A stretch of DNA of 64,000 bases, from the NCBI RefSeq assembly GCF_018853465.1, contig NZ_JABBOU010000009.1, positions 9,525 to 73,524 of the forward strand, read 5' to 3'. Of this stretch, positions 4,769 to 21,585 are shown in pieces (positions within the stretch are counted from its first letter, which is position 1; every line of letters starts with the position of its first letter). The stretch is from Acidithiobacillus montserratensis (lineage in GTDB: Bacteria > Pseudomonadota > Gammaproteobacteria > Acidithiobacillales > Acidithiobacillaceae). Made by a program: the position numbers and the translations under genes. Under the pieces are notes generated by a model. The model had not been told where the DNA came from. It did not search any database and saw only the letters and a program-made list of their open reading frames with translations.

Positions 4769-4837
4769 GAGATAACTCCTTTTTTCAGATGAATTTCGGC
4801 TGGTTCCAGGTACGCATAGAACTGCCACTATGGTTTA

Positions 4838-4867: not shown

Positions 4868-6982
4868 TCACGGGGATCCTGCGACAATGATCAACACCAG
4901 TACCAGGGCGATCAGGATGTAGCTGGCATAGGTATTGACCCGGCCTTTGTGCATTTTGGCCAGTAATGCGGCAATCCGCATGGTGCTTTGAATGACAGGT
5001 TGAATCACCAGGCGTTCGGAGATGTTGGTGATGATCTGGTGATAGCTGCGGGTCAGCACAAAAGCACCCTGACGTTCTTCTTTTTCTTCCATCAGCGGAT
5101 GAAAAAACCCCTGAAAGACAGCCCGGACCGGCGCGGCAAAAGTGGTTGCCGTGTACGTCATTTCCGGGCGCAAGCGTGTCAGTCCGGCATCCCAGAGGGT
5201 GTTGCGGCTGACCTGATGTTTACGGCGACGCAGGCCGCGCGCCAGCACCCATACCGTTGCGAGCATGAATATCAGCACAAGAAAAGTCAGCAGTGTGGAC
5301 ATGGCATAGACCACCGGTGCGTTGCCCTGATTCAGATGCATGACCACGAGGCTGCGTAGCGGCAGGAAAGTGGCTCCCAGATTGGCGCCGATGGGATCCA
5401 GGGCGTGCCTTACGGCCAGGGGAACCTGACTGGGTATATGGAAAAAATCAGGCACGAGGGATGCGGTCGGATTGGCCCCCAGAAGGGGGGCTGCCAGACG
5501 GGACAGAACGGGCAGGATCAGGGTGGCCGCAAGGCCCAGCAATAAGGCGAGCAGGGCCAGCAAGCCCATGGGTATGACCACGGTCAACGGTGCTTTTTTT
5601 GCCGCACTGGCATGGGTGGAACGGGGTAATCCCATCAGGGCGCTGCCGGGGAGCATGATAAAGCAGGTCAGGGCCAATCCTGAGGTGAGGGCCAGCAAGG
5701 CACCGGACAGAGCGAAAGTGATGCGCACGGGAATGTCCGGTATTTCCACCACGCGCAGCAACGACTCCAGCAATAACCATTCACTGACAAAACCGTTGAA
5801 AGGAGGCAGGGCGGCAATCGCAAAAGCGCCCAAAAGAAAGAAGGTACCCAAAGCGGGTAGCCGCTTCATCAGGCCCCCCAGTTCATCCAGATTATGGGTG
5901 CCGGTGCTGGCGTCTATTCCCCCGGCTCCAAGAAAAAGCAGGGTCTTGAAGGTCGAATGATTGATCATGTGATAGAGGCCGGCGACCATGCTGGCACCCC
6001 CCAAAAACGGATGTCCATAGGCGGCAAAGGTTAGCCCCGCACCTATTCCGGCAGTGGCAATGCCCATGTTTTCAACAGAGCTCTGGGCCAGCAGCCGTTT
6101 CATGTCTTTTTCGACGAGTGCGTAAATAATGCCGATGAGCGCGGTCAGGGCGCCACTGCTGAGAATGATCAGGCCAAGTTGCGGCAGGTGCAGGGCTATG
6201 GGCGCGTCAATGCGTAAAAATGCATACAGCCCCAGATTGAGCGTGGCCCCCGAGAGTATCGGCGAAGTGGAACGCGGGGCGGTGCCATGGGCGGCGGGCA
6301 ACCAGACATTGAGGGGAATGATGCCAGCTTTCATGCCGAATCCGAAAAATGCCAACAAACCCGCGACCATCAGCAGGGTCGGTGACATTTCCGGAACGGC
6401 ACTGGCTATCGCTTCCAGTTGTGGAGAACCCGCAGCGGCGGCCAGTAACAGCAGACTGACCAGACCCGCAAGACTGCCCAGCTCGGATAATGCGAGAGTC
6501 AGTAATCCAGCGGCAACTGGTTTGCTCTGCCGGGTTTCAAAGGTGATCAGTCCCCAGATGGCCAACGCTGCCAGCTCCCAGCAGAAGATAAATGCGGCAA
6601 TGCTGGCTGCCGAAAAAAAGCCGATCATACTGGCGAGCGTCAGCATGACAATGGTCAGAAACAGCCCCCTTCTTGCGCTTGGATAAAGATTGGCATCGTG
6701 GGTGACAAAAGGGAGGGCGACGGCAAAAACACTGGCAGTGATGAGAATCAGCAGCCCGCCCAAGGGGGTTTGCACAAAATCCAGGGGGCCAATGATGGGT
6801 AACTGCAGGGCAACCAGCGACTGGTTGTGGCCTGCTGCAATGGCTATGACCGCCTGAATACCCGCCAAAATACAGGCGCTGGTCATTACTGACCAAGCAC
6901 TCAGGGCTGGTATGCGACGGCCGGGAATGAACGCCAGGATCGGACCGGCCGCAAAGAGCAGAAACGCAATGATGTAGAGCAT
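4868..6982 (-). CDS. hyfB: HyfB-like proton-translocating antiporter subunit, operon A
   Basis: A 704-residue polytopic membrane protein of the NuoL/M/N-MrpA family, the class used as the distal proton pump of group 4 hydrogenase-type complexes. Seen: about 14-16 hydrophobic helices, the family core WLPAAHGTAPRSTSPILSG, the half-helix block MKRLLAQSSVENMGI, and a long C-terminal extension with a charged stretch then a final helix, as in HyfB. It is the last gene of operon A; its ATG at 6982 overlaps the stop of the NuoB-like gene by one base (TGATG), with GGAGG upstream, so it is translationally coupled. Which ion it moves cannot be read from sequence, but protons are expected. Confidence 0.88.
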   Translation of the reverse strand: MLYIIAFLLFAAGPILAFIPGRRIPALSAWSVMTSACILAGIQAVIAIAAGHNQSLVALQLPIIGPLDFVQTPLGGLLILITASVFAVALPFVTHDANLYPSARRGLFLTIVMLTLASMIGFFSAASIAAFIFCWELAALAIWGLITFETRQSKPVAAGLLTLALSELGSLAGLVSLLLLAAAAGSPQLEAIASAVPEMSPTLLMVAGLLAFFGFGMKAGIIPLNVWLPAAHGTAPRSTSPILSGATLNLGLYAFLRIDAPIALHLPQLGLIILSSGALTALIGIIYALVEKDMKRLLAQSSVENMGIATAGIGAGLTFAAYGHPFLGGASMVAGLYHMINHSTFKTLLFLGAGGIDASTGTHNLDELGGLMKRLPALGTFFLLGAFAIAALPPFNGFVSEWLLLESLLRVVEIPDIPVRITFALSGALLALTSGLALTCFIMLPGSALMGLPRSTHASAAKKAPLTVVIPMGLLALLALLLGLAATLILPVLSRLAAPLLGANPTASLVPDFFHIPSQVPLAVRHALDPIGANLGATFLPLRSLVVMHLNQGNAPVVYAMSTLLTFLVLIFMLATVWVLARGLRRRKHQVSRNTLWDAGLTRLRPEMTYTATTFAAPVRAVFQGFFHPLMEEKEERQGAFVLTRSYHQIITNISERLVIQPVIQSTMRIAALLAKMHKGRVNTYASYILIALVLVLIIVAGSP

Positions 6983-7725
6983 CAGGGCTGTTCCTCCAGG
7001 GAGGCTGGCGCTACCCGTCCCACCAGGCTGAGCAAGCCATGAATGATGGCGAGAGGCGGGGGTGGGCAGCCGGGCAACCATAAATCGACGGGAATGATTT
7101 TTTCCAGTCCACCGGCACAGGCAAAGCTTTCCCCGAAAATGCCGCCATTGATGGCACAGGTGCCCATGCCCATGACCCTTTTGGGGGCTGGCATGGCGGC
7201 GTAGGCCTTGAGGATAGCGGTACGCATGGCATCGGTGATCGGACCCGCCACCAGGAGCACATCGGCGTTACGCGGGGTTGCCGTCACAAAAATACCGAGA
7301 CGGTGAAGATTATAAGGGGGTGCATCGACCAGTCGGACTTCATTGACACAGGCCCCGCAAGCTCCTGCATCAATATATAAAACATGCAGAGAAGCCGAAA
7401 AGCGCGAGCCCAGAACGGGCTGCGCAGAGGCTGTAGAAGCGCCCCAGGCGAAATCCCGGGACCAGGGGAGGGCATGGGAGCCGGTCCGGCAGCGTTGGCA
7501 ATGAATACAGCGGGAAAAATCCACCGCCACACCATGCTCTGAGGTCTCCTGTTGCTTGACGACCCGCAGGGCCTGGGTCGGACATTGCGCAGCGCTTTCT
7601 TCGGGGTGCAGGCTCTGCGTCGCTCGCGGCCGTCCCGGGGTGATGCCGACACTGTCCTCTTCGCCATCGGGCCAGGATGTCGTGCTTATGCCTCTTTTCA
7701 ATCCATAATAGGGCCAGAAGCTCAT
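6982..7725 (-). CDS. hyfI: HyfI/NuoB-like iron-sulfur small subunit with degenerate ferredoxin domain, operon A
   Basis: A 247-residue fusion. The C-terminal two thirds are NuoB/HycG-like with the four expected cluster ligands: CGAC in DAGACGAC, the Cys in GTCAINGG, and the Cys in PGCPPPP; this would hold an N2-like [4Fe-4S] cluster beside the large subunit. The N-terminal 90 residues correspond to a two-cluster ferredoxin, but the first site keeps only the final CP and the second reads CIHCQRC followed by Ser where the fourth Cys should be. So the ferredoxin part is largely dead, in contrast to the paralogue in operon B. It overlaps both neighbours by one base. Confidence 0.87.
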   Translation of the reverse strand: MSFWPYYGLKRGISTTSWPDGEEDSVGITPGRPRATQSLHPEESAAQCPTQALRVVKQQETSEHGVAVDFSRCIHCQRCRTGSHALPWSRDFAWGASTASAQPVLGSRFSASLHVLYIDAGACGACVNEVRLVDAPPYNLHRLGIFVTATPRNADVLLVAGPITDAMRTAILKAYAAMPAPKRVMGMGTCAINGGIFGESFACAGGLEKIIPVDLWLPGCPPPPLAIIHGLLSLVGRVAPASLEEQP

Positions 7726-9302
7726 CAGCGATCGTTCTCCGCTACGGACAGGCCCCAGGTGGCCAGAATGATGGGAAAATCCTGGAATGCCGCCCCTTCA
7801 ATGGCGCGTTCGAAGGCGTGCCAGTTTCTGAAGCCGGGTGTCCCGAGGCGCAGGCGCGTGATCAAGCCGTCTGCAGTGCAGCGCAGCCAGTGAAAAGTGG
7901 CGCCTGAGGGCGCTTCTACCCAGGCCAGGGCATGCCCCTCGCGCACCGGGCAGGGGCTGTGTATGGGGCCGTCTGGTAAAAAGGCCAGCAAATCGAGGAT
8001 CAGTTTGACGCTGATCCGGCTTTCGGCAAAAAATACCCGTAAGCGGGCGTAGCCATCGCCTTCTTCTTCCAACGGAACATCAGGCGCCAGGAATCCATAC
8101 TGTCCATAAGGCAAATTGCGCCGCAAGTCGATGTTTCTGCCCGAGGCTCTGGCGATGGGACCGACTACCCCGTAAGTTTTGGCCATCTGGCTGTCGAGCG
8201 TGCCCATTTCTTCGATACGATCAAGAAAGCTGGAGCTTTCTTCCAGGTGCTGTTCCAGCGCACGCATGCGCTGATCAATGGCAGGCAGATTGTTGTGAAG
8301 TATTTCGAGAGCGTCTGTATTCAGATCTTCGCGGAGTCCTCCCGGCGTCAGGACGCCAAAAAAATAGCGATGTCCACACAGTCTGGCGCTGAGTCTCAGC
8401 AAATCTTCGACGATGCCTTGGGCCAGGGCCTTGGCCACGGACAGGGCCGTGGATCCGGCAATTTCGGCAATGTTGGCGGCATGATGACGGATGCGCTCCA
8501 GCTCGGCGAACACCATCCGCAATTGTTCGGCGCGGGGAGGTGGCTGACACGCGCCAATTTGTTCCAATGCCTGACAATAAGCCCAGCCATGGGCAAATGC
8601 TGAGGCACCGGCAAAGCGTTCTGCCAGCAGCAGGCCCTGATCAACCGTACGGCCTTCGGCAATTTTTTCGACCCCGCGATATTTGTAAAACAGTCGGGTA
8701 TGGAGATAGCGGATCTGCTCACCCGGTGTTTCGAGCAGCCACAGCCCGGATTCATTGAAATCTCCCCAGACTGGACCGATGGGAAAAACGATAGCGCCTT
8801 CTTCCTGTAAAAGTCGGGGCGGTGCCCATTCTGCGCCAGTGCCATGGGCATCCGGACGTTTGCTGCCGTCAAACTGGCGGCGCATGGGGTCTATCCCTTC
8901 CGGCCAGTCATCATCGTGCAATACAAAATCGCCCAGAAAGGGGTGACCGCTGAAACGCAGTCCATACAAATCCCAGGCCTCGCGTTCGTGCCAGTCAGCG
9001 GCGTGAACGGTATCACTGATGGCCGGCAATTCTGCCCCCGCCTTGACGGCGACCTTCAGCTCGATCAATTTCCCGGTGGCAGGTAGATAAAACAGATAAT
9101 GCACCGTCAAATTTTCCTGATCGGCAAGTTCTTCCACCAGCAGGGTGGCAAATTCGGCCTCTTCTTTTTCCAGCAGATACCGGGTCAGCGTGGGTAACTG
9201 TTCTGCTGGACACATTATCTGTAACCATTGTTCAGAATGTTCGTGCCAGGACAGTGCAGAGTTGCTGTGCAGCACGGTTTGCAGTTCTATGGAAATACTC
9301 AC
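7725..9302 (-). CDS. hyfG: HyfG-like large subunit (NuoC-NuoD fusion) lacking Ni-Fe ligands, operon A
   Basis: A 525-residue protein: an N-terminal NuoC-like domain (residues 1-150, with HEREAWDLYGLRFSGHP near 105) fused to a group 4 hydrogenase large-subunit/NuoD-like domain. In true hydrogenases the L1 motif carries CxxC within an ERVCG context; here residues 228-239 read ERFAGASAFAHG with no Cys. The C-terminal L2 motif (DPCxxC) is replaced by residues with no Cys (ATWGLSVAENDR). It therefore cannot bind the Ni-Fe centre and resembles the hydrogenase-related (Ehr) group, whose reaction is unknown. ATGA overlap with the upstream hyfF-like gene shows coupling. Confidence 0.88.
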   Translation of the reverse strand: MSISIELQTVLHSNSALSWHEHSEQWLQIMCPAEQLPTLTRYLLEKEEAEFATLLVEELADQENLTVHYLFYLPATGKLIELKVAVKAGAELPAISDTVHAADWHEREAWDLYGLRFSGHPFLGDFVLHDDDWPEGIDPMRRQFDGSKRPDAHGTGAEWAPPRLLQEEGAIVFPIGPVWGDFNESGLWLLETPGEQIRYLHTRLFYKYRGVEKIAEGRTVDQGLLLAERFAGASAFAHGWAYCQALEQIGACQPPPRAEQLRMVFAELERIRHHAANIAEIAGSTALSVAKALAQGIVEDLLRLSARLCGHRYFFGVLTPGGLREDLNTDALEILHNNLPAIDQRMRALEQHLEESSSFLDRIEEMGTLDSQMAKTYGVVGPIARASGRNIDLRRNLPYGQYGFLAPDVPLEEEGDGYARLRVFFAESRISVKLILDLLAFLPDGPIHSPCPVREGHALAWVEAPSGATFHWLRCTADGLITRLRLGTPGFRNWHAFERAIEGAAFQDFPIILATWGLSVAENDR

Positions 9303-10780
9303 CCTTGCACCTCTAACAACTGCGCCGCTTCATGTACCAGATGGGTCAATGGTGGGGGAAGATAAAAGCCAAAAACCAGAACCGGGATGAAGGCAATGGC
9401 CATGGCCGCCAGGCTGCTGCGGGGAATTTTTATGGCAGGGGAGGGCTCATTCTGGGCCGTATCCGGTGTACCAAAGGCGATGCGCGTAGCCTGGTAGGCC
9501 AGGGCAATGAAGGCGATCACTATAAAGGCGGTCAGCAGGCCTGTGGGCAGATACTGACCGTTACTGTAGCCGGTATCGAGAATTTCAAATTCCGACAGGA
9601 AAAGGGCAAAAGGCGGAGCGCCGGCAATAGCCAGGGTGCCGAGAATCAGCGCCCAGCCAACCGCCGGAGCACGGCTGATCAGCCCCCGCACCTTGGCAAT
9701 TTCCTGGGTGCCAAAAATGATGCCGGCCAGGCCTGCCGCAAAAAAGCAGAAAGATTTGGTAAAGCCGTGGGCAAACAGCTGATAGACGGTGCCCTGCTCA
9801 TGAACGGCGGCGCCAATGCCGCAGGCAGTGAGGATAATGCCCATGTGTTCAATGGTGGAATAGGCGAACATTCTTTTGAAATCATGTACCTGTATCAGCA
9901 TGAAGGCAGCGCTGCCGACGGTGATGAGTCCGGCAGTCATGTACCAGGCGGCCGGATCATGGATGCCCGGATTGACCGCGAGTGCCGGGTAGATACGTAA
10001 CAACATGTAGAGGGCTGCACTGGTTTCAACTCCGGATAATACGGCGCAGACCGAAGCGGGAGCCTGACTGTGGGCATCAGGAAGCCAGGTGTGCATGGGG
10101 ACCAGACCGGTTTTGGCACCAAAACCGATCAGCCATAATACAAAAGCCAGGAGCAGCAAAGGCGCCGACATATGGGGTGCGGCTTTCAGCAGGCCGTCCC
10201 AGGTGGGGGCCTGCCCGGCGGCATGGGTTCCATAGTACAGCATCAATACCCCGAGCAAGGCGATCATGGCCCCCATACTGGTCAGAGCCACATATTTCCA
10301 GGCGGCTTCCAGCGCTTCGGCCCGATCTTCATAAGCCACCAGAAATGCCGAAAAAACGGTGGTGAGCTCAATGGCAATCCACATGAGGGCTAGATTGGCC
10401 ACCAGAGGTACGGCGAGGATGACCAGGGCAAAAACATTCATCAGCGGAAAATACTGGCGGTAACGCGGTTCTGCGGCGTCTTTGGCCTGTTCCTGTTGGC
10501 GGGCCCACAGGTAACCGATGGCATAAAGGGAGGAAGTAAAGTAAACAAAGCTCACCGGCAGCAAATACAGGGCACCCAGAGCGTCCAGATAAAACAGGCC
10601 ATCGCTCCCGCTCAAGGGACCATGGGCTTCTACCTGCCAGGCTGCGGAAATCGCCAATAGCAGGGTAATAAAAGCGGCGAGCACACTGAAATAAGGTGCG
10701 GAACGCCGGTTTGCCAGGGCGAGCAAAGCGCCGCACAGGGGCACAAGCAGAATAAGTGCTGGCAGCCATTCAGTGTTCAT
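9299..10780 (-). CDS. hyfF: HyfF/NuoN-like antiporter subunit, operon A
   Basis: A 493-residue polytopic membrane protein of the NuoL/M/N family. Seen: WIAIELTTVFSAFLVAYE with the conserved Glu near residue 130, the pump block PMHTWLPDAHSQAPASV near residue 235, and KRMFAYSTIEHMGI near residue 315. The start at 10780 (MNTEWLPA) overlaps the end of the hyfE-like gene by 11 bp; the frame is open further upstream but that part would lie inside hyfE. Length matches E. coli HyfF (526). It is the second of two pump-like subunits in the operon. Confidence 0.87.
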   Translation of the reverse strand: MNTEWLPALILLVPLCGALLALANRRSAPYFSVLAAFITLLLAISAAWQVEAHGPLSGSDGLFYLDALGALYLLPVSFVYFTSSLYAIGYLWARQQEQAKDAAEPRYRQYFPLMNVFALVILAVPLVANLALMWIAIELTTVFSAFLVAYEDRAEALEAAWKYVALTSMGAMIALLGVLMLYYGTHAAGQAPTWDGLLKAAPHMSAPLLLLAFVLWLIGFGAKTGLVPMHTWLPDAHSQAPASVCAVLSGVETSAALYMLLRIYPALAVNPGIHDPAAWYMTAGLITVGSAAFMLIQVHDFKRMFAYSTIEHMGIILTACGIGAAVHEQGTVYQLFAHGFTKSFCFFAAGLAGIIFGTQEIAKVRGLISRAPAVGWALILGTLAIAGAPPFALFLSEFEILDTGYSNGQYLPTGLLTAFIVIAFIALAYQATRIAFGTPDTAQNEPSPAIKIPRSSLAAMAIAFIPVLVFGFYLPPPLTHLVHEAAQLLEVQG

Positions 10781-11447
10781 GGAGCTTGTCCAGAGTGCCC
10801 ACACGCGTGGAGCCGGTAACCCGGCGAATGCTGCGGATGAGTAGGCCAATCACCAGGGCGACAATGGGCACGTCCACCGCAGCGGCTATTTCGGCAATGA
10901 CGGTCAGATTATGAACAATGGCGATGGAACCAAAAAAAGCACCATTTTCCATGATCAGCAGACCCATCATCTGCGCCACGCTCTCGCGCCGCAAGGCCAC
11001 AGTGAAGGCTCCCCAAAGGACCATGATCAACCCCGTGGGCAGATTGATGACGGCAAAGGGAACCCCATGCAATGTGGGTAAAACCGGGGCAACCGCAAAC
11101 CAGCCGACCAGGGCAAAAACGGCGGCAACCAGGACCGAAGCAGGAATTCCCAGGGCCTGATCCACTTCGCGACGACCATAGACTTCTTCTCCGGCAGCCC
11201 AGCGCAGTACCAGGGGAACGGCGATAACCTTGGTGACAAAAGTGATCAGGGCTACCCAAAGCAGGTTGACTGTATGCAAGGCATCGGCAAGCACCAGGGC
11301 GGAAAGTGTCAGGGCGATCGACTGGCCCATGAAAAAGCGCAGGGAGGCGAGCATCTGGCGGGAGACCATGACGCCCAGCCCAAATACCACAAATAGCGCT
11401 GCGACGGATCCGGCAATACTGAGCATGATCGGACTGACGGTGATCAT
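10770..11447 (-). CDS. hyfE: HyfE-like membrane subunit, operon A
   Basis: A 225-residue protein with about seven hydrophobic helices; the C-terminal half (MMGLLIMENGAFFGS, then VPIVALVIGLLI) has the NuoK-like pattern with a buried Glu, as in HyfE. The ATG at 11447 shares a base with the stop codon of the hyfC-like gene (TGATG). It bridges NuoK-like and neighbouring subunits in the membrane arm of group 4 complexes. Confidence 0.82.
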   Translation of the reverse strand: MITVSPIMLSIAGSVAALFVVFGLGVMVSRQMLASLRFFMGQSIALTLSALVLADALHTVNLLWVALITFVTKVIAVPLVLRWAAGEEVYGRREVDQALGIPASVLVAAVFALVGWFAVAPVLPTLHGVPFAVINLPTGLIMVLWGAFTVALRRESVAQMMGLLIMENGAFFGSIAIVHNLTVIAEIAAAVDVPIVALVIGLLIRSIRRVTGSTRVGTLDKLHEH

Positions 11448-12409
11448 CAGGCAATTCCTGTCAGCCGGATGCTGACTGCAAAGAGACAAATGATGAAAGC
11501 CACGGCGAGAAACTCGGAAATTCTGAACAGCCTTAGCTTCGCGAGGGTGGTTTCCACCAGGGCGAGAATGATGACAAAAGCCAGCAATTTGAGCAGAACC
11601 AGACCAACAGCTGCGAGAACAGCTGTCCACTGCGTGCTCTGCGCCAGCCCCCAGGGGGTCACCAGTACATTCACAAACACCAGTGCCAGCACCATGAGTT
11701 TGTTGGCCCCACCCCATTTCATCAATGCCGCGCTGGTCCCGGAATACTCCAGCCCTTTGGAATGGCCGATCATGGCGATTTCTACTTTTCCTGCTGGACT
11801 GTCTACCGGAATACGGCCCTCATCGGCCAGTATCAGCAGGAAAAAAGCGAGAATGACCATAAAGTGGGCAGGCTGTAACATGCTGGCCCATGATGCCCCC
11901 CAGGTGGCAGTCACAAAATAAGGGATGGTGCTGTTGGCAACGTAAGACACGCTAAAAAACACCATGATGAAAACAGGTTCGGCGAGAAAACCCACCATGT
12001 GGGTCCGGCTGGCGCCGACGGCGGCATAAAGATTGCCTGTATCCATGCCGCCCAGGGCCACAAAAAAACCGGAAATGGCCATCAGGAAACCCACAGCAAC
12101 CATATCTCCCATAAAAGCAAAAAACAGGGGATAAGCCGTCAGAGCAGGTATCAGTAACACGACGAAAAGAGGCATCACAAAAGCGACGATGGGGGCAAAG
12201 CGGAATACCCAGGTGGACTGTTCGGAAATGACTTCATCCTTGGCAAAAAGCTTCCAGATATCGCGATAAGTCTGCCAGACGCTGACGCCACTTTTTCCCT
12301 GGATGATTTCTTCCAGACGGTGCAGCACCCCTTCCACCAAGGGGGCAAACAAAAGAATGAAGCCCACTTGACAGAGATTCAGCACCAGATGGGTCCAGAG
12401 CGTGCTCAT
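11447..12409 (-). CDS. hyfC: HyfC/NuoH-like membrane anchor subunit, operon A
   Basis: A 320-residue NuoH/HycD family membrane protein. Seen: GVSVWQTYRDIWKLFAKD near residue 40, and DEGRIPVDSPAGKVEIAMIGHS near residue 195, matching the Glu/Asp-rich loop that faces the quinone or hydrogenase module in complex I and HycD. Its ATG overlaps the stop of the preceding unknown gene (ATGA at 12406-12409). It would connect the peripheral Fe-S arm to the pumps. Confidence 0.88.
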   Translation of the reverse strand: MSTLWTHLVLNLCQVGFILLFAPLVEGVLHRLEEIIQGKSGVSVWQTYRDIWKLFAKDEVISEQSTWVFRFAPIVAFVMPLFVVLLIPALTAYPLFFAFMGDMVAVGFLMAISGFFVALGGMDTGNLYAAVGASRTHMVGFLAEPVFIMVFFSVSYVANSTIPYFVTATWGASWASMLQPAHFMVILAFFLLILADEGRIPVDSPAGKVEIAMIGHSKGLEYSGTSAALMKWGGANKLMVLALVFVNVLVTPWGLAQSTQWTAVLAAVGLVLLKLLAFVIILALVETTLAKLRLFRISEFLAVAFIICLFAVSIRLTGIA

Positions 12410-12843
12410 GACAGCCCTACTTTGTAACCCAGTGCGGCCAGCAGGTCACCAATACCCATCAACCCCAAAGCCCATTTCCAGCGTGCTCCCTGCACCCATT
12501 GACCCAGGGTGAGTCCTACGCCCAACGGGGCCGCAGCGCCCATAAAACTGCTGGCTGTGGCAATGCTGGCCATATCCTCAATAATATCTCTATAACTGCA
12601 GGGATGTTGATAGTGACCAATAAATTCGCAATCCGTTTTGACAGATTTCTGGAGAGAAGAATGTAAAATCATGGGCAGAACATGGGCTGTTCCACTGGCG
12701 CATATCCACAAATCTACACCAGACCGTGAGTATTCTTCGGCTTTTCGGGAAACTCGGGTGGCCAGCGCTTCTACCGATTGCTTCAAAACTATGGGCTGTT
12801 TTGGGCGCAAATTCGGTACTGTAAAAGATTGCGATGATGACAA
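12406..12843 (-). CDS. unknown membrane-associated protein, first gene of fluoride-riboswitch operon A
   Basis: A 145-residue protein that I cannot assign. The N-terminal 95 residues are soluble (VSRKAEEYSRSGVDLWICASG, then QHPCSYRDIIEDMA with two Cys nearby), and the last 50 residues are hydrophobic and Gly-rich (SSFMGAAAPLGVGLTLGQ, WKWALGLMGIGDLLAALGYK), suggesting one or two membrane helices. I prefer the TTG at 12843, which has GGAGGG five bases upstream. The frame is also open to a GTG at 12897, but that codon lies inside the fluoride riboswitch hairpin and has no SD. It is coupled to hyfC by an ATGA overlap. No counterpart exists at the head of operon B. Confidence 0.72.
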   Translation of the reverse strand: MSSSQSFTVPNLRPKQPIVLKQSVEALATRVSRKAEEYSRSGVDLWICASGTAHVLPMILHSSLQKSVKTDCEFIGHYQHPCSYRDIIEDMASIATASSFMGAAAPLGVGLTLGQWVQGARWKWALGLMGIGDLLAALGYKVGLS

Positions 12844-12879
12844 ATTACCCTCCACATGCCAAACTTTAATTCGGTCAAT

Positions 12880-12929
12880 GTAGAAGTCATCAGCCACAAA
12901 GGCGGTTATTTGGTGGACTTCATCACCAT
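12880..12929 (-). promoter_or_regulatory. fluoride (crcB) riboswitch, operon A
   Basis: Read on the minus strand, this 50-nt element has the crcB-motif order: P1 stem GGTG/CACC around the loop ATGAAGTC, the linker AAATAACC, a small stem GCC-TTTGT-GGC, and the conserved 3' end TGATGACTTCTAC. The loop bases GAAGTC are exactly complementary to GACTTC in the 3' end, giving the expected pseudoknot. The paralogous element upstream of operon B has compensatory changes in P1 and in the pseudoknot. It starts at the predicted transcription start. The P1 bases TCCAC can also pair with GTGGA of the downstream SD, which suggests translational control with fluoride freeing the SD (inference). Confidence 0.85.
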
Positions 12930-12935
12930 CGATTA

Positions 12936-12964
12936 ATTATACAAAATTAAATCATTTCATTCAA
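12936..12964 (-). promoter_or_regulatory. sigma70-type promoter of operon A
   Basis: TTGAAT (12959-12964) and TATAAT (12936-12941) are separated by 17 bases on the minus strand in an AT-rich stretch. The start site is predicted about seven bases on, near 12929, which is exactly where the riboswitch begins. Confidence 0.75.
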
Positions 12965-13003: not shown

Positions 13004-13390
13004 TCACGATAATACGGACAGCTTTTCGGCCGCTGAAACCCTGACGGCATGTGCGGGGTGATGGCTGAGTTTCTCCAGTGCTTCGCGTTTTTCTGATCCG
13101 GACGGAAGACGTTCAATGGCATCCAGCACTGCCATACCCTGAACGACATCCACGGGATACTGGGCCGCACAATCGGCCAGAGGGCCCGCTGCTTCCGGAC
13201 GCTTCTGGTTAGCCAGGCTGAGAATGGCGCCCATCCGTACTTCTGAATGGGGATTGCGTAGAGCCCAGATCAGTCGATCAAAATAGGGCGTTTCCCGCTC
13301 CCAGCGTTCAATGTCACGGCCATATACCGGACAAGAGACGCTGCCGACGGGGATCTCGGCATAGCAGAGTGGGCAGTAGTGGTGGTTCAT
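13004..13390 (-). CDS. zinc-ribbon/HEAT-repeat protein, last gene of operon B
   Basis: A 128-residue protein. The first 30 residues look like a half-intact zinc ribbon: CPLC at residues 6-9, then a second knuckle reading CPVYG, where the final Cys is Tyr/Gly. The rest is alpha-helical with HEAT-like units (VRMGAILSLAN, VVQGMAVLDAIERL, VRVSAAEKLSVLS), each carrying the A-A-L pattern of PBS-lyase HEAT repeats. Such modules are protein-binding scaffolds. Its start overlaps the DUF190 stop (ATGA at 13387-13390), so it belongs to the crcB-DUF190 tail of the operon. Function unknown. Confidence 0.75.
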   Translation of the reverse strand: MNHHYCPLCYAEIPVGSVSCPVYGRDIERWERETPYFDRLIWALRNPHSEVRMGAILSLANQKRPEAAGPLADCAAQYPVDVVQGMAVLDAIERLPSGSEKREALEKLSHHPAHAVRVSAAEKLSVLS

Positions 13391-13704
13391 GCGCAGCCGC
13401 AGTCGGCTTCCCAGCGTAAAATATGATTACCGGGAACCAGCTCCAGCAGGTGTGGCATGACCGCATCCACGGTTTCCGGCTCATCAAAAAACTCCAATAC
13501 CAGAGGCAGATGGACGTTCAGGCGCAGGATATCATCAGCATGCACCACCCCCTTGCTGCCAAAACCGGCAATGCCGCGAAAGGCCGTCACGCCATGAACT
13601 TTGTACTGATCATGGAGCATGCGAAATATTTCCTCCATCAGATTGTGGCCGCCGTGTTTGTCGCCTTCTTTGATGTAAATTCGCACTACAGAAACGCTGG
13701 TCAT
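13387..13704 (-). CDS. DUF190 family protein
   Basis: A 105-residue protein of DUF190, a PII-like small fold that is frequently encoded beside crcB. Seen: VRIYIKEGDKHGG near residue 7, the central GVTAFRGIAGFG, and LPLVLEFFDEPETVDAVMPHL. It starts 14 bp after crcB and overlaps the HEAT gene by four bases. The family has been proposed to sense or modulate the neighbouring channel; its ligand is unknown. The start at 13704 was chosen because an SD-like GAGGAG precedes it; an upstream in-frame GTG lacks one. Confidence 0.87.
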   Translation of the reverse strand: MTSVSVVRIYIKEGDKHGGHNLMEEIFRMLHDQYKVHGVTAFRGIAGFGSKGVVHADDILRLNVHLPLVLEFFDEPETVDAVMPHLLELVPGNHILRWEADCGCA

Positions 13705-13718
13705 GATTGTTACTCCTC

Positions 13719-14096
13719 TCAGATACTGCGGGATATCCAGGCACCGGCAAATGCCGCTGCCACACACAGGAATAGTGAAGCAAACATGTAAATCAGAGCC
13801 TTGACGGTATCGCCATTTTCGAACAGTACCAGGGTTTCCAGGGAAAATGTCGAGAAAGTGGTGTAGGCACCCAGACCTCCGGTGAGCATGCCGGTACGCA
13901 ATTCCGGACTGAGGGAAATGCGCTCCAGGGTTTCAAAAAACAAAAAACCCATGATGAAACAGCCCATGATGTTGATGCTTAGTGTGGCCCAGGGAAAATC
14001 TCGTCCAAATACGGTTTGCACCAGCAAACTCTGACCATATCGAGCCCAGGCACCCAACACCGCAAATATGGCAATGAAGCCGAAGGTGGCAAACAT
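13719..14096 (-). CDS. crcB: CrcB/Fluc fluoride channel
   Basis: A 125-residue four-helix protein. Seen: GAWARYG near residue 15, the central LSINIMGCFIMGF with the conserved Asn and Gly-x-Phe, and the hallmark TTFSTF (residues about 79-84) holding the Phe-box and Na+ site. Fluc proteins work as dual-topology dimers and let F- leave the cytoplasm. Only one copy is present, so a homodimer is expected. It follows the hyfB-like gene of operon B by 18 bp on the same strand, and the operon leader is a fluoride riboswitch, which makes the assignment secure. Confidence 0.96.
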   Translation of the reverse strand: MFATFGFIAIFAVLGAWARYGQSLLVQTVFGRDFPWATLSINIMGCFIMGFLFFETLERISLSPELRTGMLTGGLGAYTTFSTFSLETLVLFENGDTVKALIYMFASLFLCVAAAFAGAWISRSI

Positions 14097-14114: not shown

Positions 14115-16073
14115 TTAAATATAAAAAACACTCGCAAAAATGATAATCAGCAATAATCCTATATAGGCAAGATAAGCATTCAAGGAACCATTTTGCAGAG
14201 CCAGTCCGATGCGGTCACTCAAAAACTGAATGAAACGAACAATTGGTCGAAATAACCAGGGGCCGAATACCGGTGCCTGGCTATAATCAAAGTGCAGTTC
14301 CCGCACAAAATAATTACGTTCCGTATGGCTTCTGCGGGTGTTGGTACTGGGACGATACACAAAGCTGTAAAATTCCCGCAAGGCATTGGAAAAAGCCAGG
14401 GCGGTCACTGCATTATTGGCCGGAATCTGCCGCAGACCATGTCCCCAAACCGGCACCCGTTTGCGGCCCTGACGGAGATGACTCCAGCCCAGCAGCGTCA
14501 GGGGAATGAGCGACAACAATAGGCCCATCAGCAGCAACAGCGGCGGGGAAATAAAGGCGAAATGGAAGCGCAGGGGAATCAGAATCGGCCCTTTCACCAT
14601 GGCCTGCAGAGCGGCCGGTACGGCTGGCCAGTTGTCCTGGGCGAGGAAACCCAGCGTCCAGGGCAGGGCTGCGGCATAGGCCAGCACCAGCAAACCGAGA
14701 CCGAGAATCGGCCAGCGTCCGGAAACGGCTTGATGATTTTCCTCACGGCCCAGAAGGCCCAATCCAAACACTTTGATCATGGTGGCCAGGGCGATGGCGG
14801 CAGTCAGTGCCAGGCCGGCACCACCCAGGGCCAAAGTGACCCGGGCAGCAGAGCTGCTCAGGTGAAAATCCTGGAATACGGTCTGGAATAAATACCATTC
14901 ACCGGCAAAACCGGCGGTGGGTGGCATGGCGGCCAGACTCATGGCGCCGAGCAGCGCACCGATACCCAGAGTCCAGGGAGCAAGTGCCAATAGCCGGCTT
15001 TGGGCAATGGCATAGCTTCCCCGGACTCCAGCAACCCGGTCCGCGCTGAGCATCATGCTGCCTTTGGCGAGACTGTGACCACCCAGATGGATGAGTCCTA
15101 CGGTCCAGGCCAGGGTAGAGAGCATGGTGAGCCCATCCGCCCGGAACAGGGACGCCGCACCTAAGGCAACCACGGCGAGCCCGGCATTTTCAGCGGTGGA
15201 AAAAGCCAGCAGACGCCGCCAGTCTTCCTGTTGAAAGGCATATAAAATGGCGAGAATAGCGGTGATGGTTCCCAGGGCCACCAGTAAAATACCGGTGCCG
15301 GTCGCGCTGCTGCGCGGTAACCAGTCGAGCATGGCCCTCCCCAGAGCAAAATAGGCGACATTGAGCACAATACCTGACAGCAAGGCTCCGGAAGCACCAC
15401 TGCCGCTGCCATAAGCGCCGGGATACCACTCATAGAAGGGCAGGATGCCGAGCTTGGCGCCAAAGCCGATGATAAAGAGGATGGCAATACCGAAGGCGGC
15501 GGATCCATAGCCTGCCCATGTGCCCGCCCAGCTGGCAAAATCCGTGTTGTGGGCGCCGAGCAAAAGCAGGCACAGAAGCAGTGCGACAGCACCCACTTCC
15601 AGTAGCGCGAGCATATACAAATTGGCCTGGCCACTTTTTTCGTCTTGCTGCAAGCCGTCGGCCAGAAGCATGATCGCACCGCCGAAGCTTAGAAATTCCC
15701 AGGCGATCAAAAAAGCAATGCCTTCCTGCAGGCCGGCAATACCCAGACATCCCAGCAAGGCGAGACCTGCGCCGGACATCCAGATGCCGGGATTTTTGGC
15801 GCGGCTTGGCGACAGAACAGCGGCTAGTGCGGCGAGCCCCCCCCAGAATATCAACCAGGCAGCCGCTGCTTGCAGGTGCCAGGTGACGGGAATGTCACCC
15901 AGTGACCAGAGCTGACCGGAGCTGTTTCCGGACGAAAGGCTGAGAACGCTGCCCGACAAGGTGGCCAGGGTGCCGATAATGAGGGCAATGCGCGCGCTCT
16001 GAGCCAGTCGCAGCAGGCCCAGGACGATGGCCAGGACAAAAAATCCGGCTGCCAGCAGAAAACTATTCAGCAT
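14115..16073 (-). CDS. hyfB: HyfB-like proton-translocating antiporter subunit, operon B
   Basis: A 652-residue NuoL/M/N-type membrane protein, paralogue of the 704-residue one in operon A. Seen: AWEFLSFGGAIMLLAD with the conserved Glu near residue 125, the pump region LPFYEWYPGAYGSGSGASGA where the usual HxxAP is altered, and DWRRLLAFSTAENAGL. The long C-terminal extension ends in a single helix. The start at 16073 (MLNSFLL) overlaps the upstream NuoB-like gene by 11 bp. The altered pump loop may mean different ion handling from the operon A subunit (inference). Confidence 0.87.
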   Translation of the reverse strand: MLNSFLLAAGFFVLAIVLGLLRLAQSARIALIIGTLATLSGSVLSLSSGNSSGQLWSLGDIPVTWHLQAAAAWLIFWGGLAALAAVLSPSRAKNPGIWMSGAGLALLGCLGIAGLQEGIAFLIAWEFLSFGGAIMLLADGLQQDEKSGQANLYMLALLEVGAVALLLCLLLLGAHNTDFASWAGTWAGYGSAAFGIAILFIIGFGAKLGILPFYEWYPGAYGSGSGASGALLSGIVLNVAYFALGRAMLDWLPRSSATGTGILLVALGTITAILAILYAFQQEDWRRLLAFSTAENAGLAVVALGAASLFRADGLTMLSTLAWTVGLIHLGGHSLAKGSMMLSADRVAGVRGSYAIAQSRLLALAPWTLGIGALLGAMSLAAMPPTAGFAGEWYLFQTVFQDFHLSSSAARVTLALGGAGLALTAAIALATMIKVFGLGLLGREENHQAVSGRWPILGLGLLVLAYAAALPWTLGFLAQDNWPAVPAALQAMVKGPILIPLRFHFAFISPPLLLLMGLLLSLIPLTLLGWSHLRQGRKRVPVWGHGLRQIPANNAVTALAFSNALREFYSFVYRPSTNTRRSHTERNYFVRELHFDYSQAPVFGPWLFRPIVRFIQFLSDRIGLALQNGSLNAYLAYIGLLLIIIFASVFYI

Positions 16074-16854
16074 ATTGGCCTCCGCTGACACGTTGGGGCA
16101 TGCGCTCCAGCAACAGCAGTAGTGCATGGATCAGGGCGGCGGGATTGGGTGGACAGCCCGGCAGCCAGATGTCCACAGGAAGAATTTTTTCCACGCCTGA
16201 CCCCCCGGCATATCCGCCATCCATGGGCGCTCCCGAAACCGCACAAGTGCCGGTGGCGATCACGCTGCGGGGTTCGGGCATGGCTTCCCAGGTCGCCAGC
16301 AGCACGTCGTGCATGGGCGCCGTCACCGGACCCGTCACCATGAGCAGATCGGCGAAGCGTGGGGAAGGCGTAAAGAAAATTCCGAGACGATGCAAATTGT
16401 AAAAAGGATTGTCCAGGGCGCTGATTTCCGCTTCGCAGGCATTACAGGAGCCGGCGTCCACATGGCGAATATGCAGGCTGCGCCGCTGGCTGGACGCAAT
16501 GCGTTTGCGCAGGTGTTCCGCCTCATGGCTTTCCAGGGCTGAAGACCAGGTCAGGTCACTGCGCTGGCGAACGCCAAAGGCCCAGTCATAAGAGCTCTGC
16601 ATGGCGCCTTCGGGACATTCTTCCACGCAACGCTGACAGACAATGCAGCGTCCGTAATCAATGACCGGTTCAGCCTCTATCTGGTGAATGGCCTGGGTGG
16701 GGCAACTGTTGACACAGAGGTCGCAACCGCTGCGGCATTTATCGATATCCAGACGCGGCATACCGAGGACGCCCTGCTGTCCGTCGGAACCGCTGTGTGG
16801 CCAGCGGGTGGCGGCTTTGCCGGCTTTGAGTCCTGTCCAGGTCCATAGAGGCAT
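16063..16854 (-). CDS. hyfI: HyfH-HyfI-like fusion: two-cluster ferredoxin plus NuoB-like subunit, operon B
   Basis: A 263-residue fusion. The N-terminus carries a complete 2x[4Fe-4S] ferredoxin: CRSGCDLCVNSCP near residue 40 (first spacing C-x3-C instead of the usual C-x2-C) and CIVCQRCVEECP near residue 70. The C-terminal NuoB/HycG domain has all four N2-type ligands: CNAC, the Cys in GTCAVSG, and PGCPPNP. This gives an electron path from a soluble donor to the large subunit. It is intact where the operon A paralogue has lost Cys. It starts nine bases after the large subunit gene. Confidence 0.9.
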   Translation of the reverse strand: MPLWTWTGLKAGKAATRWPHSGSDGQQGVLGMPRLDIDKCRSGCDLCVNSCPTQAIHQIEAEPVIDYGRCIVCQRCVEECPEGAMQSSYDWAFGVRQRSDLTWSSALESHEAEHLRKRIASSQRRSLHIRHVDAGSCNACEAEISALDNPFYNLHRLGIFFTPSPRFADLLMVTGPVTAPMHDVLLATWEAMPEPRSVIATGTCAVSGAPMDGGYAGGSGVEKILPVDIWLPGCPPNPAALIHALLLLLERMPQRVSGGQYAE

Positions 16855-16863
16855 AATTTTCTC

Positions 16864-18369
16864 CTAACGGTCGCAGCCGGCAATGGTGAGGCCGAAGCTG
16901 GCTTCGTTGATAGCGTAATCCATCATGTTGGTACCATGTACCGTCAGCGGGAATACGCGCCAGTTGGAAAATGAGGGAGATTTGATTTTGACCCGCTGCA
17001 GTCGCCCGTCCCGGATGCGCACGGCGTACATGAGTGTGCCCCGGGGGGTTTCCGCCCAGCCGAGGCCCTGCTGCTCTCCTGGCGGTGGCGCATATTCCGC
17101 CTGTACCGGACCGGCCTTGAGACGCCCGGATGCCTGCACCAGTAAGGCCAGGGCTTCGCGCAGGGATTCGGCGCGAACCTCGCTGCGCGCCATGGCATCC
17201 CCTTTCTCGCGGACGGGTACGTTAAAACGTAACTTATGATATGCCGCGTAGGGATGATCCCGGCGTAAATCCCGGTCCAGTCCCGAGGCGCGGGCGACCG
17301 GGCCGGTGGCTCCCTGATCGAAGGCGGCTTCCCGGGAAAGTATCCCGGTGCCCATCAGGCGGTCCAGATGAGTCGCGGTCTGATGCAGGCGATGCAGGTA
17401 AGCTTCGCCTTCGTCGATAATGCCTTCCAGGGCGCTTGCCAGATGTTCGGCGGATAGATCCCGTCGCAGGCCACCCACGCAGAGCAGGCTGCGCAAATAG
17501 CGGGACCCCGTCAATTGGCCCGCTAGCTGTTTGACTCGCTCTTCCATCAGAAAACCGGTGGCGGCCCCGACCTTGAGGGTGGTGGTTTTGGCCAGTTGGC
17601 CAAAATAGTGAAAATGATTATACAGTCGCTCCAGTTCCACAATGATGACGCGCAGCAGCTGCGCCCGCAGCGGTACTTCAATGCCCCAGGCATTTTCCAC
17701 CGCCTGACAGTAGGCCAGGGCGTGGCAGGCACTGCCCACACCCGATACCCGCTCAGCCAGATACACACTGCGTGCGGCATCCTGCCCCGCAAAGCGTGCT
17801 TCCATGCCCCGGTGTTTAAAAAACAGCCGGGGATGATAATGAAGAATGGCCTCGCCAATGTAGGAGTAGTGGAATTCGCCGGTTTCCACCACATCGGCGC
17901 GTACGGGTCCCCAATACAAGTCCTGTACCTGATCGCTCTGCACTTCGGGCATGCTGGGGGGCTCGTAACTTCCTTGCAAATGGCCTTGCAAATGGTCGTC
18001 TGCAGTCGTTCGGCCCAGGGGCGGCGGGGAGATGCTGAAACCTTCATGAATGATCAGGGGAAAGGGCTCGGGATGTCCGCTGAACTCAAGGCCACCCAGA
18101 TCGTGCATTTCCCGTTCATACCAGCCTAAAAGCGGGACTACAGCAGCCAGGGAAGGCAGCGTATCGGTACCCCGCACTTCCAGCAGCACAAATTCAGCGT
18201 TGCCTTTCTGACTGAGTAAATAACGGACCACACATTCCTGGTCCTCCCAGTCATGCCAAGCCATCAAAAAGCGCATCTGCTGATTCAGACATTCCCGGGC
18301 GACATCTACGAGTTGATCTACCGTAACCAGTCGGGTGCTGCACGAATTCAATGAACTCTCCATACTCAT
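16864..18369 (-). CDS. hyfG: HyfG-like large subunit (NuoC-NuoD fusion) lacking Ni-Fe ligands, operon B
   Basis: A 501-residue NuoC/large-subunit fusion. The NuoC-like part contains WYEREMHDLGGLEFSGHP near residue 83. In the large-subunit part, the L1 site (about residues 205-216) reads AERVSGVGSACH, so the first CxxC is lost; the C-terminus reads EASFGLTIAGCDR, keeping a single Cys where DPCxxC is expected. The Ni-Fe centre cannot be assembled. The start at 18369 overlaps the preceding stop (ATGA), which is why I prefer it to the ATG two codons later. The two large subunits of the window have lost the ligands in different ways. Confidence 0.88.
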   Translation of the reverse strand: MSMESSLNSCSTRLVTVDQLVDVARECLNQQMRFLMAWHDWEDQECVVRYLLSQKGNAEFVLLEVRGTDTLPSLAAVVPLLGWYEREMHDLGGLEFSGHPEPFPLIIHEGFSISPPPLGRTTADDHLQGHLQGSYEPPSMPEVQSDQVQDLYWGPVRADVVETGEFHYSYIGEAILHYHPRLFFKHRGMEARFAGQDAARSVYLAERVSGVGSACHALAYCQAVENAWGIEVPLRAQLLRVIIVELERLYNHFHYFGQLAKTTTLKVGAATGFLMEERVKQLAGQLTGSRYLRSLLCVGGLRRDLSAEHLASALEGIIDEGEAYLHRLHQTATHLDRLMGTGILSREAAFDQGATGPVARASGLDRDLRRDHPYAAYHKLRFNVPVREKGDAMARSEVRAESLREALALLVQASGRLKAGPVQAEYAPPPGEQQGLGWAETPRGTLMYAVRIRDGRLQRVKIKSPSFSNWRVFPLTVHGTNMMDYAINEASFGLTIAGCDR

Positions 18370-19829
18370 GGCTGCACCAGAAAAGCCTGTTGAAAAAATC
18401 CCCACAATCCGGTGGGCCACCACAAACCCAACACCAGTACCGGGATCAGTGCCAGCCACATGGGCAGAGTATTCCAGAGAGAGAGTTTCAGGGTCGGCGC
18501 CGTATCGGGTTCGGGTTCCGGTCCCCAGATCATCCGCCGGAAATGATTCATGAAAGCGGTAAAAATGAGAATGAGCAGAATCGCCATCACCCAGACCGCC
18601 CAGGGGTTGGGGCTGAGAATGCCACCACGGAGGATGGTCAGCTCCGACAAAAACAAGCCGAAGGGTGGGGCGCCGGTAATGGCGACCGCGCCGAGCAGCC
18701 AGACAGTGCCGCTCACCGGATAGTAGCGCAGCACATGCCGCATTTTGCTCATGGATTTGGTGCCGTAAGCACGCATCATGTTGCCCGCGCCGAAAAACAT
18801 CAGGGACTTGTTCAGGGAGTGATTGAGCATGTGGTACATGGCACCCGCAAAGGCAATGGCCCCGCCAAAACCGAAACCTATGGCCAGCACCCCCATATGT
18901 TCCAGGGAGGAATAGGCGAGCATGCGTTTGGCGCCATCCTGACGGACGATGAACAGTCCGGCCACGAACAGAGAAAGCACCCCCAATACCAGCAGGGCAG
19001 TGTGGCCCATGACGCTGTAACCACCGCTATCGACAATGGCCAGAAAGCGATAAATCCCGAGCAGGGCAATATTGAGCAAGGCGCCGGAAAGCATGGCGGA
19101 CACCGGAGCCGGGCCTTCGCTGTGGGCATCGGGAAGCCAGGTGTGCATGGGGGCCAGACCAACCTTGGTGCCAAACCCTACCAGAGTCAGGAGGAAGGCC
19201 AGAAAGAGCAAGGTTTCCGGCACCTTGGGGGCAACTTCGCGGAGATTGGCCCAGGTCAGCGCATAGGTCGGTCCGAGTACAAAGGTGCCTCCCCAGTAAA
19301 ACAGGATGATGCCGAGCAGAGCCAGAGCTAACCCCGCAGACACCACAATCAGGTATTTCCACGCGGCCTCAATGCACTCCGCTTCTTTCTCAAAACCCAC
19401 CAGAAAGGCACTGACAATGGTTGTAAAGTCAATCGCAATCCAGAAAATGCCCGGATTGTTCATCAATGGCGCAATGAGCATGGTCAGCGCGAAACCCGCC
19501 TGCAGGGCGTAGTATTTGTGGAGTCGCGGCTTTTCTTCAGGCAACAGGCGCATGTAGCCAATGGCATAAATGGAAGCCAGCAGGTACACCAATCCTACAC
19601 AGAACAGCACCCAGGCCCCCAGCGGCGTCAGCAAAATATAGCGCGCCCCGGTAACCAGGGGCTTATCGGGTGCGGCCACCAGAATGGCCAGGGTCAGCCC
19701 AAACACGGTGATGGACGTGAGCAGATTCAGATATTCCGCCAGACGCGGGCGGCGCAGGGCCAGCATCACGATAATGGCGACACCGGGGATGATCCAAAGC
19801 GCGGCGATCAGAGCAGCAAAATTGACCAT
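18366..19829 (-). CDS. hyfF: HyfF/NuoN-like antiporter subunit, operon B
   Basis: A 487-residue polytopic protein of the NuoN/L family. Seen: FWIAIDFTTIVSAFLVGFE (an Asp where many family members have Glu), PMHTWLPDAHSEGPAPVSA near residue 225, and KRMLAYSSLEHMGV near residue 300. ATG at 19829 lies two bases after the hyfE-like stop; a TTG at 19835 overlapping that stop is possible. It ends in an ATGA overlap with the large subunit gene. Confidence 0.86.
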   Translation of the reverse strand: MVNFAALIAALWIIPGVAIIVMLALRRPRLAEYLNLLTSITVFGLTLAILVAAPDKPLVTGARYILLTPLGAWVLFCVGLVYLLASIYAIGYMRLLPEEKPRLHKYYALQAGFALTMLIAPLMNNPGIFWIAIDFTTIVSAFLVGFEKEAECIEAAWKYLIVVSAGLALALLGIILFYWGGTFVLGPTYALTWANLREVAPKVPETLLFLAFLLTLVGFGTKVGLAPMHTWLPDAHSEGPAPVSAMLSGALLNIALLGIYRFLAIVDSGGYSVMGHTALLVLGVLSLFVAGLFIVRQDGAKRMLAYSSLEHMGVLAIGFGFGGAIAFAGAMYHMLNHSLNKSLMFFGAGNMMRAYGTKSMSKMRHVLRYYPVSGTVWLLGAVAITGAPPFGLFLSELTILRGGILSPNPWAVWVMAILLILIFTAFMNHFRRMIWGPEPEPDTAPTLKLSLWNTLPMWLALIPVLVLGLWWPTGLWGFFQQAFLVQP

Positions 19830-19831
19830 GT

Positions 19832-21463: not shown

Positions 21464-21523
21464 ACTGCTCTCCCTTGTCAGCTTGACTAATACCCAATAT
21501 TCCCAAGCTTGCACTTGAGGTAG

Positions 21524-21574
21524 GTAGGAGTCATTAGCCTATAAAGGCGGTTATTGGGCGGAATCCATCGCCAT
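21524..21574 (-). promoter_or_regulatory. fluoride (crcB) riboswitch, operon B
   Basis: On the minus strand: P1 stem GGCG/CGCC around loop ATGGATTC, linker CAATAACC, small stem GCC-TTTATA-GGC, then TAATGACTCCTAC. The loop GGATTC pairs with GACTCC at five of six positions (pseudoknot). About 42 of 51 positions match the operon A element, and the differences in P1 (T-A to C-G) and in the pseudoknot (A-T to G-C) preserve pairing. It begins about five bases after the predicted transcription start, and crcB itself lies in this operon. Confidence 0.87.
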
Positions 21575-21585
21575 AATTTGGGCTA

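Follow-up and report, generated by a model that had tools for sequence, protein, structure and literature searches.

A 64,000-nucleotide stretch of the Acidithiobacillus montserratensis genome (the window) carries two neighbouring operons, A and B, each of which stands behind its own fluoride riboswitch and encodes a six-subunit membrane complex related to formate hydrogenlyase and to respiratory complex I. The large subunits of these complexes lack the cysteines that would hold a NiFe site, and in the clade to which operon B belongs the link between the complex and the fluoride riboswitch is near-obligate.

The first-pass annotation had read the start of the predicted operon A transcript as a crcB motif with a six-base pseudoknot (GAAGTC with GACTTC), lying directly after a TTGAAT-17-TATAAT promoter, and had proposed a search with the Rfam crcB covariance model. 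The search, once run, bore this reading out: RF01734 matches window positions 12936-12874 (minus strand, as all features of the two operons) with 56.0 bits against a gathering score of 34, and the E value of 7.6e-13 rules out a chance match. In this aptamer A (12874-12936), P1 is formed by 12927-12924 and 12915-12912, the pseudoknot by six pairs between 12921-12916, in the P1 loop, and 12888-12883, and P3 by 12903-12901 and 12895-12893. The pairs covary in the family sample: in a set of 39 distinct riboswitches drawn from this genome and others, 96.6% of the cells of the pseudoknot helix are paired and four of its six pairs show changes on both sides, and the covariation score of the whole structure was reached by none of 500 shuffles. 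A second match, which the first-pass annotation does not mention, lies at 21581-21518 (53.1 bits, cut-off 34) and heads the sister operon B. Both aptamers match the full-length model with P1, P3 and the pseudoknot, with the difference that aptamer B (21518-21581) has one pseudoknot mismatch (GGATT with ACTCC) and nevertheless scores 53 bits. No third fluoride riboswitch was found in the genome (2.83 Mb, 178 contigs) by a whole-genome search that scored 150 of its 450 first-look candidates. The promoter is likewise where it had been placed, i.e., a sigma-70-like TTGAAT-17-TATAAT at 12964-12936 that matches exactly and abuts aptamer A, so that transcription of operon A should begin just before P1. 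With up to one mismatch allowed, the promoter pattern occurs at two sites in the window, compared with 0.19 expected from shuffling, the second being a promoter-like site with one mismatch at 13007-12979.

In many crcB-motif RNAs, transcription terminators overlap the motif (PMC2864571). The leader of operon A differs in its predicted expression platform, which appears to be translational, and inspection of its sequence showed no stretch of at least four T between the pseudoknot and the start codon. In the ligand-free fold predicted with ViennaRNA, the 3′ strand of the pseudoknot uses four of its bases to pair with the Shine-Dalgarno sequence GGAGGG (12848-12853) of the first open reading frame, which starts at TTG 12843. 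A GGAGG-type site and a TTG at +39 occur in all five A-type leaders, and in all five the pseudoknot 3′ strand is predicted to pair downstream at 0.75-1.00, with the Shine-Dalgarno sequence as its main partner. When the aptamer was enforced in the model, the Shine-Dalgarno sequence stayed paired, now to coding sequence further on, and its release by fluoride is therefore plausible only. For the B-type leaders, seven of which were folded (one from the window and six from relatives), downstream pairing lies at 0.61-0.99, and in the window the strand is predicted to pair in front of the Shine-Dalgarno sequence and not over it. Twenty leaders were also taken from the named loci described below; two could not be parsed, and among the 18 scored the pairing was at least 0.60 in 13 and at most 0.50, i.e., weak or absent, in five (L101, L111, L138, L144 and L172). 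Switching would then proceed as follows: without fluoride, the pseudoknot 3′ strand would pair downstream, which in operon A means over the Shine-Dalgarno sequence of the first gene, and expression would be low, and fluoride together with Mg2+ would lock the pseudoknot, withdraw the 3′ strand and allow the operon to be expressed.

Operon B runs from 21581 to 13004. Behind the riboswitch lie a HyfC/NuoH-like subunit (20522-21463, PF00146), a HyfE-like subunit (19832-20512), the antiporter-like HyfF (18366-19835, PF00361), the HyfG (NuoCD-like) large subunit without NiFe cysteines (16864-18369, assigned by alignments and by an AlphaFold model nearest to 7z0s_E), a small subunit in which a ferredoxin domain is fused to HyfI (16063-16854, a 2[4Fe-4S]-HyfI with all 12 cluster cysteines) and a second antiporter-like subunit, HyfB (14115-16073, PF00361). 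The HyfE-like subunit was assigned by its position, as it has no Pfam match and scores 51.3 bits with NF008556, below the cut-off of 136. The operon continues with a CrcB/Fluc fluoride channel (13719-14096; PF02537, 98.1 bits, cut-off 32.9), a DUF190 protein (13387-13707, PF02641) and a HEAT-repeat protein (13004-13390, PF13646).

Operon A (12964 to 4868) has, behind its promoter and riboswitch, a short open reading frame followed by a HyfC-E-F-G-I-B set that has diverged from that of operon B, the two large subunits being 32% identical. The set comprises HyfC/NuoH-like (11447-12409, PF00146), HyfE-like (10770-11447, probable start 11447), HyfF (9299-10780, PF00361), HyfG (7725-9302, again without NiFe cysteines, by profile match and alignments), ferredoxin-HyfI (6982-7725) and HyfB (4868-6982, probable start 6982, PF00361). 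The HyfE-like subunit, again without a Pfam match, lies between HyfC and HyfF, and the A- and B-type reading frames at this place form one BLAST cluster. In ferredoxin-HyfI of the window, as in all six fully aligned A-type sequences, the ferredoxin cluster I cysteines are lost and those of cluster II and of the N2-type cluster are retained. In one relative (L061:3192-6050, genome G009), HyfI and HyfB of operon A form a single reading frame of 952 residues that the HyfI cysteine alignment does not resolve. Operon B is the widespread form, and the A-type has been seen in Acidithiobacillaceae only.

The first gene of operon A, which had been noted as an unknown gene, is present as the first reading frame (12406-12843, TTG start); it proved, however, to be a gene fusion whose two parts are found separately in relatives, with the N-terminal 91 residues coming from a gene X and the C-terminal 55 from a VIT1-like gene Y. 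Gene X stands alone as a reading frame of 104 residues in G009 and of 118 in P0124, the latter a 98% identical protein in which X is unfused. Gene Y encodes a membrane-type protein of 174 residues whose VIT1 match stays under the Pfam cut-off. A protein search returned ten homologues, and both of the named ones are from Acidithiobacillus. A longer version of 163 residues from GTG 12897 was rejected, because its start would fall inside the aptamer and TTG 12843 is preceded by GGAGGG. At the other end, a gene for cyclopropane-fatty-acid synthase (cfa; 3515-4828, PF02353) starts 39 bases past hyfB; cfa adjoins in relatives as well, and it is probably the last gene of the operon A transcript. Past cfa, a reading frame at 2856-3434 encodes a TMEM175-family channel (PF06736, 108 bits).

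The operon had been described as encoding a relative of formate hydrogenlyase in the membrane. The relationship holds, with six subunits of Hyf type; by sequence, however, it is not a hydrogenase, since both pairs of NiFe cysteines are absent from the members compared. The CGIC motif of E. coli HycE (7z0s_E) aligns with AGAS in A and SGVG in B, and the C-terminal DPCxxC is missing. Both pairs are lacking in all 24 aligned A- and B-type large subunits of the order (16 B and eight of nine A, the ninth, from G014, lying at a contig end and having been left out), and the ligands are missing in 31 of 31 rows of a further alignment (the window together with 30 of the 120 homologues listed). A wider sample was drawn as the best 80 of at least 538 confirmed protein relatives in named genomes, chosen by protein alone; from it, subunit alignments were built with 69, 66, 73, 78 and 73 loci plus the window, after sequences that deviated strongly in length from the reference had been set aside. 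Among the 74 B-type large subunits (73 named loci and the window), neither RxCGxC nor DPCxxC occurs once, and the last 20 residues hold a single cysteine in 55 and none in 19. The complex should thus be neither a formate hydrogenlyase nor any other NiFe hydrogenase, as far as these ligands can tell.

A genuine formate hydrogenlyase or hydrogenase with a role in fermentation under fluoride, the view implied by a 2024 review, could appeal to the database names of the homologues (formate hydrogenlyase subunit 5, nickel-dependent hydrogenase large subunit), and to the AlphaFold model of the B large subunit (pLDDT 86), whose best structural match is 7z0s_E of the E. coli formate hydrogenlyase with a TM of 0.87. 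By sequence, the absence of the NiFe ligands from the members examined rules this identity out; the curated NiFe model NF033181 gives 59.6 bits for B and 19.7 for A against a cut-off of 600, and no formate dehydrogenase or maturation gene was found among the reading frames of operons A and B, so that we leave this explanation next to no probability. The closest named protein matches are from Acidithiobacillus. With E. coli formate hydrogenlyase and hydrogenase-4 (7z0s), the complexes share the subunit types C, E, F, G, I and B, the fold of the large subunit and an Fe-S small subunit, and they differ in lacking CGIC, the C-terminal cysteine pair and formate dehydrogenase, and in having a ferredoxin domain fused to the small subunit.

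The place of the lost ligands has a signature of its own. In the 74 B-type sequences, the first NiFe cysteine position is occupied by S (68), A (5) or T (1) and the second by G (38), D (35) or A (1), and ASFGL is found near the C-terminus in all 74. Such a cavity, looking as if a new ligand were bound, would suit a dedicated redox enzyme that acts on a substrate arising under fluoride stress, with ion pumping secondary; however, apart from the six subunits no gene was found to recur in nearly all loci, and we consider this explanation distinctly unlikely.

The remainder of the complex has been kept. All 12 cluster cysteines are present in 79 of 79 B-type HyfI sequences. In HyfF, residues E156, K224, K303, H339 and K343 are found in all 67 B-type sequences, and in HyfB the residues E159, K207, H333, K337 and E392 in all 74, with E126 in 72 of 74 and gaps in the other two; all of these are kept in A too. 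At one position conservation is imperfect: for the TM5-like acid of HyfF, 44 of the 67 B-type sequences have Glu and 23 have Asp, with Asp in B and Glu in A of the window. We take these HyfF and HyfB residues to form the proton or cation path of the known relatives, and the conservation of cluster cysteines and channel-type residues indicates that the complex is under strong selection. Among the reading frames of operons A and B, no gene for an electron donor or acceptor was recognised. With respiratory complex I (NuoCD, NuoB, NuoH and NuoL/M/N), the complexes share homologous modules and the channel residues; they differ in that they lack the NADH module, have only two antiporter-like subunits and have replaced the tyrosine of RMDYLHSF in the complex I 49-kDa subunit, which aligns with G in both A and B and which we take to be the quinone ligand of complex I.

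The constancy of the riboswitch link was followed within the order and beyond it. Among 31 genomes of Acidithiobacillales, the riboswitch occurs in 26. A B-type large subunit is found in 16 of the 31, and in all 16 an RF01734 match lies 3.15-3.18 kb upstream on the same strand. The A-type is present in nine, with a riboswitch of its own in five; a permissive search found none for the other four (G008, G014, G021 and G025). In the wider sample, all 69 testable loci, six of them Acidithiobacillaceae, have the riboswitch upstream at a distance of 3165-4586 bases and on the same strand, the other 11 of the 80 having too little upstream DNA. The search model for this linkage was built from 40 riboswitches, some of which came from the tested loci themselves; RF01734 was run on eight of the 69, including the weakest, and exceeded its cut-off at the upstream site in all eight. 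Altogether, the 80 named loci gave 181 riboswitch matches, and RF01734 was found somewhere in the genome of 77 of 79 carriers. The named carriers include six Acidithiobacillaceae, Acidiferrobacter, Thiomonas, Paraburkholderia, Caballeronia, Pollutimonas, Acidiphilium, Rhodopila, Labrys, Acidicapsa and other Acidobacteria, genera which we take to be acidophiles.

As a control, 398 genomes were drawn evenly from the phylum, and 68 of them hold a group-4-like large subunit (E 1e-45 or better). Among the 398, no further A- or B-type large subunit was found besides those of the window's own genome, the next-best match to B being a type C sequence (G341, 210 bits). In the other 67 genomes, under stricter filters, no contig that carries the large subunit has a riboswitch within 10 kb of it, although, several control genomes being in short contigs, a few links could be missed. 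Only 11 of the 67 have any fluoride riboswitch (ten over the cut-off), the nearest to a large subunit at about 57 kb. Nor was a riboswitch found near any of the 16 type-C loci of Acidithiobacillales. With these other paralogues unlinked, the linkage can be rejected as a by-product of riboswitch-rich genomes. Where the motif was inspected, in 30 control loci, 25 have an NKSFN C-terminus (type C), two are CGIC hydrogenases and three were unparsed, one of the latter being labelled CGIC in the tree. Type C is a second widespread NiFe-less group-4-like family, with an SGDS-type motif where it could be parsed and without a fluoride riboswitch nearby (e.g., L090:10595-12154, L091:8101-9708 and most of L235-L262). 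In the tree, A and B each form one clade and the two are sisters (98/97), the calculation having given long-branch warnings and containing one poor row (L238). NiFe-less group-4-like large subunits are also known from Ehr complexes, whose function is unknown (PMC4378227, PMC7304191). The large subunits of the window share this feature with them; the fluoride clade differs in having a constant regulator, gene order and fluoride partners.

In some lineages the complex appears to have been lost. Thirteen riboswitches of the order head no complex; 12 of these have crcB-DUF190 downstream, and the thirteenth (G012) lies at a contig end. Between the riboswitch and crcB, seven of the 12 complete loci retain a piece of the front of hyfC (E below 1e-19) and one retains a long 3′ remnant of hyfB, so that hyfC or hyfB remnants are seen in eight of 12; the remaining loci hold one marginal remnant and, in three cases, nothing. 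The differing breakpoints of the remnants suggest that the complex was lost more than once. From such remnants it looks old in the operon and dispensable in some lineages, in which the switch and the exporter stay. As several Acidithiobacillus live on riboswitch-crcB-DUF190 alone, the complex is an accessory.

In 28 of the 80 named loci (20 of the 59 that reach that far), the start of the large subunit is followed after 3-6 kb by a crcB gene on the same strand, and 38 have crcB anywhere in the locus; DUF190 is also among the neighbours. The further families, labelled by one representative each in Pfam (two for MutS_V), are enolase (24 loci), MutS_V (23), MFS (18), CLC (12), dynamin (six and five), histidine phosphatase (six) and pyrophosphatase (five). 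Some carriers are very rich in fluoride riboswitches: Paraburkholderia sp. DHOC27 (G096, L165) has 34 matches in its genome, and those listed all fall in a stretch of about 126 kb on contig C3 (about 51-177 kb), forming a large fluoride island, and Candidatus Sulfotelmatobacter (G063, L131) has 21 in a 4.8-Mb genome. A fluoride island with crcB, eno and ppaC has already been described (PMC5533749). At L101:1067-2518, a cyclopropane-fatty-acid synthase gene stands directly behind a fluoride riboswitch, from which membrane modification appears possible as a response to fluoride.

Two explanations draw on this neighbourhood. The complex might be a primary fluoride pump that couples electron transfer to the export of F- (or to F-/H+ exchange) through its antiporter-like subunits. 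The riboswitch in front of all 69 loci that were picked by the complex alone would fit, and with crcB 3-6 kb behind in just 20 of 59, many complexes stand without an adjacent recognised Fluc. The retained channel residues, however, are those that we assume to serve protons or cations in the relatives, no halide-binding feature was recognised, and in the Acidithiobacillus operon, where Fluc is already present, a second exporter would be redundant; this makes the explanation very doubtful. Alternatively, the complex might be a fluoride-proof stand-in for a fluoride-sensitive complex I or F-ATPase, comparable to the riboswitch-controlled enolase and pyrophosphatase. The enolase and inorganic pyrophosphatase families found nearby are both fluoride targets, and F-ATPase is inhibited by fluoroaluminate. 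On the other hand, the complex has neither the NADH module nor the quinone-site tyrosine of complex I, and we know of no fluoride sensitivity of complex I itself, so that such a stand-in is, in our view, unlikely.

The reading that we prefer, and to which we give roughly an even chance, is that of a fluoride-induced, redox-driven pump for protons (or another cation) that offsets the entry of HF beside the Fluc exporter. The product of the operon would be a six-subunit membrane complex of hydrogenase/complex I descent in which the NiFe site is gone and the Fe-S wire and the ion-translocating subunits are retained, such that electron transfer would drive ion pumping. At low pH, HF would diffuse in and dissociate and Fluc would release the F-, the net result being an entry of protons. 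The pump would pay for this leak and sustain the gradient required for F- export, and would do so without NiFe and without phosphoryl transfer. The cfa gene at the end of operon A would fit the same logic, as cyclopropane-fatty-acid synthase lowers the proton permeability of the membrane. The premises of this proposal have been described: at low pH, fluoride is mainly present as HF, which crosses the membrane and frees H+ and F- inside (PMC12831704, PMC11139923), HF acidifies the cytoplasm and acidophiles then need more proton pumping (PMC12831704), and Na+/H+ antiporters are the next-commonest class of genes behind fluoride riboswitches after the exporters (PMC11139923). Several observations speak against this reading: no donor or acceptor gene was recognised in the operons, the quinone-site tyrosine is gone, the TM5-like acid of HyfF varies, several Acidithiobacillus do without the complex, four of the nine A-type operons lack a riboswitch of their own, and the predicted folds leave the Shine-Dalgarno sequence of A paired when the aptamer is enforced and give weak or absent downstream pairing in five of the 18 other leaders. 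More tentatively, and at somewhat less than an even chance, the complex may belong to a new respiratory-type class with fluoride as its dedicated purpose, i.e., a NiFe-free relative of complex I without the quinone-site tyrosine, in which electrons would drive protons (or F-) across the membrane and which would be expressed when fluoride locks the riboswitch.

Genes for "formate hydrogen lyase" have been listed behind the crcB motif since 2010 (PMC2864571; repeated in PMC8004769), as the first-pass annotation had stated and as PMC2864571 and PMC11139923 confirm, and the 2024 review puts them under a metabolic shift to fermentation, citing Baker 2012 (PMC11139923). The listed genes are probably of the same kind as those described here, with the motif preceding hyfC; the difference is that the members examined here are no hydrogenases. 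The passages on these genes in PMC2864571 and PMC11139923 mention neither a missing NiFe site nor the constancy of the linkage. A search of the open PMC literature found no paper that reports the loss of the NiFe site in fluoride-linked genes or so strong a linkage, and, among titles and abstracts, none that explains the function of the complex.

The examined sequences contradict the placement of these genes under fermentation: the NiFe ligands are found in none, and the wire, the channel residues and the riboswitch are kept at every testable B-type locus. The linkage provides a handle on NiFe-less relatives of the hydrogenases that is tied to a function. The finding would also be of relevance to bioleaching, where acidophiles are inhibited by fluoride (PMC12831704). 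An entry in a list that had stayed unexplained thereby becomes a testable claim about how cells may meet the proton cost of fluoride.
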